Source: Verrucomicrobiota bacterium (GTDB taxonomy: Bacteria; Verrucomicrobiota; Verrucomicrobiia; JADLBR01). From it: a DNA stretch of 64,000 bases. Where the stretch lies: contig JAKQKQ010000064.1 of the NCBI GenBank assembly GCA_029560585.1, positions 1 through 64,000 of the forward strand, written 5' to 3'. A program made the translations under genes and the position numbers. Of the stretch, positions 8,694 through 52,090 are shown in pieces. The notes under the pieces are model-generated. The model had not been told where the DNA came from and ran no database searches. It saw only the letters and a program-made list of their open reading frames with translations. The stretch's first letter is position 1. Each line of letters opens with the position of its first letter.

Positions 8694-8835
8694 TGTTGGA
8701 ATTGCCCGGCGTTGAAAACGCCTTCGCGCAGCTTGCGGTGGAGAGTGGAGACCAATTCTGCACCGCCATGGATCGCGCAAAATCCCATTGCGCTTTGACT
8801 TGTAGTTCTGCCGTTTGCACTTTCACTCTTGCACC

Positions 8836-9999
8836 ATGAAGCTCGCCCTCCTCTTGCTCCTCACACCCCTCCTCGCCCTCGCTTACTCGTCGGCCCCGGA
8901 CCGCGATCTCCCCGAGCCCGTCACCCGCGCGCGCACGGAGATCCGGATCCCGAATCCGACCGACCTCATCACCCTCAAGTGCGATTTCCACATCCACACC
9001 GTGTTCTCCGACGGCCTGGTCTGGCCGAGCGTCCGCGCCGACGAGGCGTGGCGCCAGGGCCTCGACGCCATCGCGATCACCGACCACCTCGAGTATCAGC
9101 CCCACAAGGACGACCTCCCCACCAACCACAACCGCTCCACCGACATCGCCCGGGGCACGGGCGAACCGATCGGCGTGATCGTGATCCGAGGCTCGGAAAT
9201 CACCCGCCAGATGCCCCCCGGCCATTTCAACGCGATCTTTCTGACGAACTGCAACGCCCTCTCGGTCAGCAACTGGACCGACGCCATCGCCGCCGCCCAC
9301 GCGCAGGACGCCTTCATCTTCTGGAACCACCCGGGCTGGGAACGGCAGGCGACCAACGGCATCGCCGTCTGGTACCCGGAACACACGCAGATCTACGAAT
9401 CCGGGATGATGCAAGGCATCGAGGTCGTCAACGGTCGCTCCTACTGCCCCGAGGCGCACCGATGGGCCATCGAGAAGAAACTGGCCATGATGAGCGACTC
9501 CGACATCCACGCCCCAATCAACATGGATTACCAGATCGACAACGGCGACCGGCGGCCGATGACCCTCGTCTTCGCCAAAGAGCGCACCCCCGAATCCATC
9601 AAGGAGGCCCTCCGCGATCGCCGCACCGCGGCCTACGCGGGCGGGTTTCTCGTTGGGGACGAACGATTCCTCAGGCCCATATTCGAGAAATCCATCCAGA
9701 TCAAGAACGCCAGCATCTCTATTCGCGGCAAGGGCCGCGCCCTCGTTCAAATAGCCAACGAGTCCAGCATCGACTTCCACCTCGCGCGCGCCGAGGAACT
9801 CCCCGATGTCGATATTCCAAAGGAGATCACGCTCCCCGCCGGCAAGACGGTGATCCTGGAAGTCAAGGGCACCGGCTCGGCGGCGACCGGCGAGAAACCG
9901 CTCGCCCTGCCCTATGCCGTCAGGAACCTCTTGATCGGCCCGGATCAAGCCCTGCCAGTCACGATCGATCTCACGGCCCGGTTTACGGAAAAACCCTAG
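8836..9999 (+). CDS. Secreted PHP-domain metal-dependent phosphoesterase-like protein
   Basis: The ATG at 8836 gives a clean signal peptide (MKLALLLLL...LALA) and a 387-residue protein; an ATG seven codons earlier would add residues that do not look like part of the signal. The PHP (polymerase and histidinol phosphatase) metal motifs are visible: DFHIHTVFSDG near residue 50, AITDHLEY near 85, RGSEIT near 123, WNHPGW near 170 and MSDSDIH near 223. The catalytic core is therefore intact and exported. The C-terminal about 110 residues form a beta-rich domain. Substrate is unknown; exported PHP proteins are common in planctomycete and verrucomicrobial genomes near sulfatase clusters. Confidence 0.85.
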   Translation: MKLALLLLLTPLLALAYSSAPDRDLPEPVTRARTEIRIPNPTDLITLKCDFHIHTVFSDGLVWPSVRADEAWRQGLDAIAITDHLEYQPHKDDLPTNHNRSTDIARGTGEPIGVIVIRGSEITRQMPPGHFNAIFLTNCNALSVSNWTDAIAAAHAQDAFIFWNHPGWERQATNGIAVWYPEHTQIYESGMMQGIEVVNGRSYCPEAHRWAIEKKLAMMSDSDIHAPINMDYQIDNGDRRPMTLVFAKERTPESIKEALRDRRTAAYAGGFLVGDERFLRPIFEKSIQIKNASISIRGKGRALVQIANESSIDFHLARAEELPDVDIPKEITLPAGKTVILEVKGTGSAATGEKPLALPYAVRNLLIGPDQALPVTIDLTARFTEKP

Positions 10000-10003
10000 C
10001 CTG

Positions 10004-10014
10004 CGATCAGGCCC
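10004..10014 (+). repeat. Target-site duplication, left side of MITE copy 1
   Basis: The 11-mer CGATCAGGCCC directly precedes the MITE and is repeated exactly at 10135-10145 directly after it. Confidence 0.9.
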
Positions 10015-10134
10015 GAATGGCGCTAAGTTAATTAAAGGACCTTTGGGATCGTGGCATGGGCATCCTGCCCATGGCCAGCGCCACGGCCAAGATGGCCGTG
10101 CCACTGACGCGACAAACTTAACTTAGCGCCATTC
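10015..10134. mobile_element. 120-bp MITE, copy 1
   Basis: The element has perfect 17-bp terminal inverted repeats, GAATGGCGCTAAGTTAA at the left and its complement at the right end. It is flanked by an exact 11-bp direct repeat. It encodes nothing. Its interior holds two hairpins, ATGGGC-atcct-GCCCAT and CACGGCC-aagat-GGCCGTG. A second copy, reversed, lies at 51964-52079 with its own different 11-bp duplication. Target duplications of 10-12 bp are typical of IS4/IS231-type elements, which suggests the family that may mobilise it, but no transposase is in the window. Confidence 0.93.
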
Positions 10135-10145
10135 CGATCAGGCCC
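10135..10145 (+). repeat. Target-site duplication, right side of MITE copy 1
   Basis: Exact repeat of CGATCAGGCCC found at 10004-10014. Confidence 0.9.
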
Positions 10146-10184: not shown

Positions 10185-11549
10185 TCACCGCGACCAGGGC
10201 CACCAGCCCTTGGCCTTCTTCGGCGGTTTCGCCGACCCCGGGCCGCCACCGGAACCGCCTTGGCGCCCCCCACCATGGCGTCTCCGGCGCCTTTGCGACC
10301 CTCCTGCCCCCGCGGGTTTATCCCCGGGCACGGCACGCCGCTCCCCGCGCCCACCGTGACCCCCGCGACCGAAATCCCTGCGTCCCCCAAACCCCGGCTG
10401 CCGCGGCGGTGCGGCTGCCCCATAATCGAATCCCTCTGCGCGTTTGCGCACGACCCCCCGCCCGATAAACCGTTCCAGCGAACGCAGCGCCCCGTGATCC
10501 TCCGGCGTCACGAAACTGATCGCGTCGCCCACGGCATGCGCGCGGCCCGTCCGCCCTATCCGGTGGACGTAATCTTCCGGGTGCGGCGGAAAATCGAAAT
10601 TCACCACGTGCGAGATCCCATCCACGTCGATCCCCCGCGCCGCGATGTCGGTGGCCACGAGGACGCGCGCCGCACCCGACTTGAAATCCTTGAGCGCCCG
10701 CAGGCGCTGGCCCTGGGATTTGTTGGAATGCAGCGTCGCAGACGGCACGTTCATCTGGGACAGCCTCCGGGCGACACGGTCCGCGCCGTGCTTCGTGCGC
10801 GTGAACACCAGCACCATGTTCATTTGCGGGTCCTTGAGCAGGTGCGCGAGCAGCGCGGGCTTGAGGTGCATCGGCACCTCATAGACAAACTGGGTCACGG
10901 TCTCCGCCGGATTCGCACGCCTGCCGATCTGCACCAGCTTCGGGTTGCGGAGGAATTCCCGGGTGATGGATTCGATCTCCGACGAGAGGCTCGCCGAAAA
11001 GAGCATCGTCTGGCGATCCTTCGGCAGCGTTCGCACGATCTGCCGGATCTGCGGCAAGAAACCCATGTCCAGCATCCGGTCGGCCTCGTCGAGCACCAGG
11101 AACTCCAGACCAGAAAAATCTCCGTATCGCCGCCCCGTCAGGTCCAGCAGCCGCCCCGGCGTGGCGATCACGATGTCCGCGCCGGCCCGCAGTGCATCGA
11201 TCTGCGGCCGCTCTCCAACGCCTCCATAGACCGTGGCCATCCGCATCGAGACGTACTTGCCGTAGGCCCGCGCATTCTCGTCGATCTGCACCACAAGCTC
11301 CCGCGTCGGCGCCACCACCAGCGCCCGCGTCCCGCGCCTGGGCCCCGCGGCCGACCTGTCGAGCTTCACCAGCATCGGCAGCACGAATGCGGCCGTCTTT
11401 CCGGTTCCCGTCTGTGCGATGCCAATGAGATCATGCCCCGCCAAGATCAGCGGGATCGCCTCCTTCTGGATCGGCGTCGGCTCGGTATAGCCCGCGTCCC
11501 CGATCGCCTTCAGTATGTGGTTTCCCAGGCCCAGCGCTCGAAATGGCAT
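10185..11549 (-). CDS. DEAD-box ATP-dependent RNA helicase (RhlE-like)
   Basis: A 454-residue DEAD-box RNA helicase that should unwind RNA duplexes in the cytoplasm, for example in ribosome assembly or cold adaptation. Motifs in order: Q motif (YTEPTPIQ), AQTGTGKT, PTRELVVQ, TPGRLLDL, DEADRMLDMG, SAS (motif III, Ser in the third place rather than Thr), ARGIDVDGISHV and HRIGRTGRA. The last about 90 residues are rich in Gly and Arg, as in RhlE-type RNA-binding tails. I chose the ATG at 11549 (MPFRALGLG), which fits the family start; an earlier ATG six codons upstream is possible. Confidence 0.93.
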   Translation of the reverse strand: MPFRALGLGNHILKAIGDAGYTEPTPIQKEAIPLILAGHDLIGIAQTGTGKTAAFVLPMLVKLDRSAAGPRRGTRALVVAPTRELVVQIDENARAYGKYVSMRMATVYGGVGERPQIDALRAGADIVIATPGRLLDLTGRRYGDFSGLEFLVLDEADRMLDMGFLPQIRQIVRTLPKDRQTMLFSASLSSEIESITREFLRNPKLVQIGRRANPAETVTQFVYEVPMHLKPALLAHLLKDPQMNMVLVFTRTKHGADRVARRLSQMNVPSATLHSNKSQGQRLRALKDFKSGAARVLVATDIAARGIDVDGISHVVNFDFPPHPEDYVHRIGRTGRAHAVGDAISFVTPEDHGALRSLERFIGRGVVRKRAEGFDYGAAAPPRQPGFGGRRDFGRGGHGGRGERRAVPGDKPAGAGGSQRRRRRHGGGRQGGSGGGPGSAKPPKKAKGWWPWSR

Positions 11550-11645
11550 AGTTAAACATGATGGCACCCTATCTGCCTGATAGCACGCCTATTCGGCATC
11601 CTCTGGCCGCGAAGGACAGGGCTCTTGGTTATTCGACGGCAACCT

Positions 11646-51192: not shown

Positions 51193-51417
51193 CCTGCATA
51201 TTTCACGCTTCCGTGTGAAATATGCAGGCTCAAAGGAAAACCGCGCTCCGAAGAACGCGACTTTGAAGGGTCTGGGACCACTGGTCCGCGAAACACACTC
51301 CGCAACCGAGGAAAAACCCACTCTTTGCCTGACCTTACCCAATAAATGGCTTTCATGGCGCGGTTTTCCCAGAGCCCGGAATTTCACAGCCGGCAGGCTG
51401 TGAAATATCCGGGTTAG
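51189..51417. repeat. 229-bp nested-palindrome element, copy B
   Basis: The element begins and ends with TTAG. Its left end is a perfect 16-bp hairpin (AGCCTGCATATTTCAC...GTGAAATATGCAGGCT, 51191-51230). Its right end is a second hairpin (CCCGGAATTTCACAGCC...GGCTGTGAAATATCCGGG). Inside these, GGAAAACCGCGC and GCGCGGTTTTCC pair. The outermost 14 bp (CCTGCATATTTCAC against CCCGGATATTTCAC read inwards) match at 12 positions, so they can also be seen as terminal inverted repeats with TTAG as a 4-bp target duplication. Copy A is at 1-203. It could be a MITE or a REP-type doublet. Confidence 0.88.
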
Positions 51418-51806
51418 CCGGCCTTGTCCGCGTCGGCCGAGGTGACCCAGAGCATCCTCCCGCGTTTCGTCTCCTCGATGCGAAAATCGACGACCATGCG
51501 CCTATCATCGCCGTAGCGCCGCCTGCGGAGATCGACCAGCTCGTGCAGCCGGCCGGCAAAAAATGGGTCGTCGCCCCGATTGGCGCGTTCGCGCATCCGC
51601 CAAAGGACCTCCCCCTGCCGATCATCCGGAAGCAGCGCCACATTCCACAGCACCACCGCGAGCTCCACCGACTGCCCGAACTCCTCCTCGGTCGCATCCT
51701 CGGGGACGATCTCGCCCACGAACTCCATCAGCACCTCGGAGAGTTTTCGCTCCTGCCCGGACTGACCCGTGCCCACCTCAGTCTTGCGCTCACGTCTTCG
51801 CGTCAT
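51414..51806 (-). CDS. Conserved-looking protein of unknown function
   Basis: A 130-residue frame with protein-like composition: KLSEVLMEFVGEIVPEDATE, VELAVVLWNVALLPDDRQGE and VDFRIEETKRGRMLWVTSAD. It appears soluble and mixed alpha/beta. I do not recognise the family. Its TAA stop is supplied by the right end (TTAG) of the 229-bp element, as with the convergent small gene on the other side, so the original C-terminus may be altered. Confidence 0.6.
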   Translation of the reverse strand: MTRRRERKTEVGTGQSGQERKLSEVLMEFVGEIVPEDATEEEFGQSVELAVVLWNVALLPDDRQGEVLWRMRERANRGDDPFFAGRLHELVDLRRRRYGDDRRMVVDFRIEETKRGRMLWVTSADADKAG

Positions 51807-51952: not shown

Positions 51953-51963
51953 AGAACTGACCC
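51953..51963 (+). repeat. Target-site duplication, left side of MITE copy 2
   Basis: AGAACTGACCC directly precedes the MITE and is repeated exactly at 52080-52090. Confidence 0.9.
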
Positions 51964-52079
51964 GAATGGCGCTAAGTTAAGCCTGTCGCGACAGGTGCAC
52001 GGCCATCTTGGCCGTGGGGCTGGCCATGGGCAGGATGCCCATGCCATGATCCCAAATGTCCCTTAACTTAGCGCCATTC
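51964..52079. mobile_element. 116-bp MITE, copy 2 (reverse orientation to copy 1)
   Basis: Same 17-bp perfect terminal inverted repeats as at 10015-10134. Read on the minus strand it follows copy 1 through the whole interior, with a few substitutions and a small length difference. Near its left end a palindrome CCTGTCGCGACAGG is complete here but degraded in copy 1 (CACTGACGCGACAAA). An exact, different 11-bp duplication flanks it, which shows independent insertion. Confidence 0.93.
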
Positions 52080-52090
52080 AGAACTGACCC
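52080..52090 (+). repeat. Target-site duplication, right side of MITE copy 2
   Basis: Exact repeat of AGAACTGACCC at 51953-51963, lying just before the stop codon region of the TPR gene that ends at 52097. Confidence 0.9.

Follow-up and report, generated by a model that had tools for sequence, protein, structure and literature searches.

The window, a stretch of 64,000 nucleotides, contains a short folded repeat between the ends of two convergent genes (8815-9999 and 10185-11567). Its terminal inverted repeat (ITR), GAATGGCGCTAAGTTAA, has 4 matches in the window, compared to 0.06 expected from shuffling. Two copies of the element were delimited, with the following features.

10015-10134, + strand: MITE copy 1, probable non-autonomous IS4-subgroup element, 120 bp, placed from ITR matches, genome copies and the consensus
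10015-10031, + strand: left ITR of copy 1, perfect, 17 bp, GAATGGCGCTAAGTTAA
10118-10134, - strand: right ITR of copy 1, perfect, 17 bp, GAATGGCGCTAAGTTAA
10004-10014, + strand: left target-site duplication (TSD) of copy 1, CGATCAGGCCC, agreeing with the palindromic target consensus at 7/9 positions
10135-10145, + strand: right TSD of copy 1, CGATCAGGCCC, exact 11-bp direct repeat
10051-10073, + strand: interior hairpin 1 of copy 1, GTGGCATGGGCATCCTGCCCATG, common to host mosaic REP-type repeats
10082-10104, + strand: interior hairpin 2 of copy 1, CACGGCCAAGATGGCCGTGCCAC, in MITE copies only, at up to 2 mismatches
51964-52079, - strand: MITE copy 2, 116 bp, placed from ITR matches, with its own exact TSD
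51953-51963, + strand: left TSD of copy 2, AGAACTGACCC, exact, 11 bp
52080-52090, + strand: right TSD of copy 2, AGAACTGACCC, exact, 11 bp

An earlier note on this DNA had described copy 1 as having perfect 17-bp ITRs, an exact 11-bp flanking duplication and an interior of two hairpins. All three were recovered, the hairpin stems being CATGGGCATCCTGCCCATG at 10055-10073 and CACGGCCAAGATGGCCGTG at 10082-10100. The span given for it, 10004-10145, takes in both TSDs, and the element proper is reduced to 10015-10134. Copy 2, with ITRs at 51964-51980 and 52063-52079, was likewise where it had been placed, 41.8 kb off and in opposite orientation, as the ITR matches bear out. Just outside the window, the same contig has a third copy (C240:67278-67392). 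Folded entirely as single-stranded DNA, copy 1 gave -39.3 kcal/mol (z = -8), and when the interior alone was folded as RNA, the two hairpins preferred pairing with each other. Elsewhere in the window, positions 51355-51440 match a high-copy dispersed repeat of a genome of the same genus, often close to contig ends.

Copies and target sites in the host genome

The assembly of the host genome, a 7.06-Mb draft of 336 contigs that is 95.7% complete, was searched for further copies (genome G000). At up to 2 mismatches the ITR was matched 35 times, compared to 2 for the reversed pattern, and about 21 copies of the MITE could be recognised, with both ends present in 16; the search for recurring ITRs that had been proposed was therefore positive. 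These copies are 78-93% identical to copy 1, and they diverge by 0.9-5.2% from a consensus of 116 bp. Copy 1 itself differs from this consensus by 6 substitutions over the 116 positions and by a 4-bp insertion beside the left ITR, so that it appears, despite its perfect TSD, to be an older or a side-branch member of the family. The earlier suggestion of a recent transposition holds only moderately for copy 1, which has an intact duplication and is among the more diverged copies.

TSDs were exact in 6 of the 14 short copies having two ends in this genome (11 bp in five, 12 bp in one), and 5 others carried one mismatch. The copies on contigs C72 and C146 were found inside one dispersed host repeat, CGAAAAYTCAGACACCGAATCGTAGGAGCCTGC, which is uninterrupted at 88 other places of the same genome (up to 3 mismatches). 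At these 88 paralogous empty sites the 11-mer that would be duplicated is present once, which directly shows that insertion was accompanied by duplication of the 11/12-mer. The empty sites that the earlier note had recommended looking for were therefore obtained, on sibling copies. Another ITR, on contig C63, adjoins the same target. The interrupted repeat is of the GTAG type and, with its 88 matches, is a repeated landing site of the MITE (uninterrupted examples are C2:73318-73350 and C43:54630-54662). For copies 1 and 2, a clean orthologous empty site was sought in a genome of the same genus (G001) and none was found, the intergenic regions differing throughout. Between the orthologues of the genes that flank copy 1 the MITE is absent, and because the whole intergenic sequence is different there, this comparison is only consistent with insertion and is not decisive.

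The target preference was derived from 44 distinct duplications, taken from this genome and from other lineages, with both orientations pooled. It is palindromic, GGGNCWGNCCC. As written, the duplications agreed on average with 5.9 of the 9 fixed positions, compared to 3.0 when shuffled (maximum of 3.6 among 2000 shuffles).

Several structural variants were seen. In two copies (L041, C295:152805, and L043, C244:138), the right ITR has lost its outer part at the same position (CTTAACYTAGC), and the break point is the start of another palindromic mosaic (CCTGCATATTTCACGC... / CCGGATATTTCACAG...). A second type of MITE has the same ITRs and another core, GGGAGGGCCCGCGGCCTCGCGGGCC (L019, C295:162607-162971, and also contigs C110 and C194 of G001). 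Three loci, L079, L138 and L141, are tandem MITE arrays, in which adjacent copies have one 11-bp duplication in common.

Full-length elements with the same ends

An exact scan for the ITR over the genomes of 84,980 species returned at least 102 stretches, from Verrucomicrobiota, Lentisphaerota, Gammaproteobacteria, Cyanobacteria, Acidobacteriota and others. No match was obtained for carriage of the ITR element on plasmids, and only two matches to the exact ITR were found in the entire collection of viral contigs. In two of the stretches, from other genomes, both ITRs were found 1.55 kb apart, enclosing one transposase ORF. These elements, L106 (1552 bp) and L136 (1558 bp), have 17-bp ends identical to those of the MITE and exact 11-bp TSDs (GGGACAGACCA and GGGGCAGAGCC, respectively), and their single ORFs encode 488 and 489 aa.

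Both transposases match PF01609 (DDE_Tnp_1) and score 210 bits against the IS4 family profile NF033592 (cut-off 115). A YREK motif of the form Y(2)R(3)E(6)K, YFQRWDVELFFRDIK, is present in both, and the D(60-110)D(100-150)E spacing is observed, with D156, D232 and E349 of P0001 assigned by eye. We compared the elements with the ends, element size, TSD length and YREK motif of subgroup IS4 (Table 1 of De Palmenaer et al. 2008, PMC2266710). GAATGGCGCTAAGTTAA fits the end pattern -AATR--------WTW----, the 11-bp duplications (once 12 bp in the host genome) fall within 10-13 bp, and L106 and L136, with their single ORF, lie within 1400-1650 bp. These transposases belong to the IS4 family, where the profile match places them, and they carry the tested hallmarks of subgroup IS4. 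The parent of the MITE, for which a search had been advised, was in this way identified at the level of its class, from full-length IS4-family elements of other genomes.

The same-genus genome G001 has, on contig C366, a decayed transposase of the same clade, with an internal stop codon, which ends less than 20 bp from an exact ITR and is 55% identical to that of L154 over the matched part. No transposase of the L106/L136 clade was found in the host's own assembly by single-sequence and profile searches. Six PF01609 transposase matches of that assembly were considered as possible parents, and none had the MITE ITRs in its locus at up to 3 mismatches. As the assembly is an incomplete draft in 336 contigs, a multi-copy IS could have dropped out of it.

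The palindromic core and other readings of the element

The two interior hairpins differ in their distribution. Hairpin 1 and its flank are also present some 20 times away from the MITE, as part of an extended mosaic of host palindromes that lacks the ITRs, and hairpin 2 is confined in this genome to MITE copies (up to 2 mismatches). The core, two REP-like hairpins with no coding role, may stem from the host repeat pool. The peptide HGQDAHAT, which arises when such hairpins are spuriously translated, was searched for in the literature, and no paper was found.

Presence of hairpin 1 in ITR-free mosaics, together with a core made of two facing REP-like hairpins and with six Y1_Tnp matches encoded in the genome, would suit a REPIN or a unit of REP mosaic that owes its movement to a RAYT (a Y1 tyrosine transposase), the ITRs then being the mere outer arms of a long hairpin. 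Transposition by Y1 enzymes proceeds without target duplication, as is established for IS200/IS605, whereas the MITE copies have 11-bp TSDs, and IS4-family elements have the very same ends. Moreover, the loci of the six Y1_Tnp matches yielded neither interior hairpin in full, and the hairpin tag is GTGG instead of GTAG. With these TSDs and no linkage to a RAYT, we discarded this origin for the unit as a whole, and consider it very improbable. We give slightly less credit still to the idea that copy 1 is chiefly a structured RNA or regulatory element of the host, such as a bidirectional terminator, rather than a mobile one. Its position between convergent gene ends and its folded interior are what one would expect of such an element, but it contains no T-run terminator and no promoter match, the gene context of copy 2 differs, and the insertion sites follow the target motif and include dispersed repeats. 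Copy 1 may have been co-opted later by the host.

MITEs with the same ends in other lineages have quite different cores, many of them strongly folded. The 2.8-Mb genome of L142 contains 93 matches to the core hairpin of its MITE, and three control genomes contain none. Samples from two further genomes showed the core of their own MITE again without ITRs, at 6 places in 400 kb and at 5 in 77 kb, compared to 0-1 for shuffled cores and 0 for the cores of other lineages. A third sampled genome had its own core in one place only, and a fourth showed no excess over shuffles. The count of 12 in the sample from the window's own genome is biased, as regions were picked partly for known repeats. In at least three other lineages, therefore, MITEs with these ends also contain a dispersed repeat of their host, and the samples support uptake of REPs for a few lineages rather than for such MITEs in general. 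That MITEs of this IS4 clade repeatedly and independently captured REP-type palindromes of their hosts as core in unrelated phyla, a DDE transposase thereby spreading REPs, is a tentative proposal to which we give somewhat less than even odds. If true, two non-autonomous repeat systems would be joined in the element as a chimera, and if the pattern is general, it provides a route other than RAYT for copying REP palindromes to new places.

Proposed movement and comparison with known systems

Copy 1 is short and non-coding, and has terminal inverted repeats, TSDs and multiple copies. Our favoured reading, at a probability of about 95%, is that of a MITE whose movement an IS4-subgroup transposase would drive in trans, through ends shared with full-length IS. 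The earlier claim of a transposed non-autonomous element is upheld by the recurrent ITRs, the TSDs, the paralogous empty sites and the ends shared with IS4 elements. What was observed is that the element is repeated, that its target is duplicated, that paralogous sites without it exist, and that full-length elements coding for an IS4-family transposase have identical ends. The same-ended autonomous partner is seen in other genomes (L106, L136), in decayed form in the same genus, and not in the own assembly; because of this last point the mobilising enzyme has to be deduced. We infer that the mover is an IS4-subgroup transposase, that it works by cut-and-paste, the known chemistry of the IS4 family, and that autonomous copies have not persisted. 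An autonomous element, of which the assembly searches found none, would have provided the transposase in trans; this enzyme would recognise the 17-18-bp ends of the MITE, excise it, and paste it into a GGGNCWGNCCC-like target of 11 bp (sometimes 12 bp), which would be duplicated upon insertion.

This reading gives an identity to a repeat family that would otherwise be left as unexplained hairpins or spurious ORFs dispersed over Verrucomicrobiota and many other genomes, and GAATGGCGCTAAGTTAA, together with GGGNCWGNCCC-like 11-bp duplications, makes a simple probe for relatives. The kind of element is already known; what is added here is the end sequence, the parent class and the target motif, along with the core of REP-like hairpins. 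As MITEs go it is ordinary, and slightly unusual only for the host-style hairpin repeats in its core.

Among known systems, the IS231/MIC231 cassettes of the IS4 family are also non-autonomous derivatives moved in trans. IS231A prefers 11-bp GGG-N5-CCC targets, which seem to resemble the palindrome GGGNCWGNCCC of the MITE. The ends of IS231 start with CAT (PMC2266710, Table 1), whereas those of the MITE start with GAATG. Subgroup IS4 (PMC2266710) shares with the MITE and its partners the end pattern, duplication length, partner size and YREK motif, and differs from the window copy, which has 120 bp, no transposase and a REP-like core. REPINs with their RAYTs and GTAG-tagged REPs (PMC3116915, PMC3733652) have in common with it paired facing short hairpins, intergenic dispersal and host Y1 transposases, but DDE-type ITRs and TSDs surround the hairpins of the MITE, whose tag is GTGG. 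The MITE paper on Thiomargarita hupL reports 10-bp repeats and names no IS4 parent. Nezha, MITEAba12, Bcr1 and other bacterial MITEs (reviewed in PMC10969869) are similar in size, absence of coding sequence, ITRs with TSDs and multiple copies; they differ in names and hosts, the comparison covering these general features.
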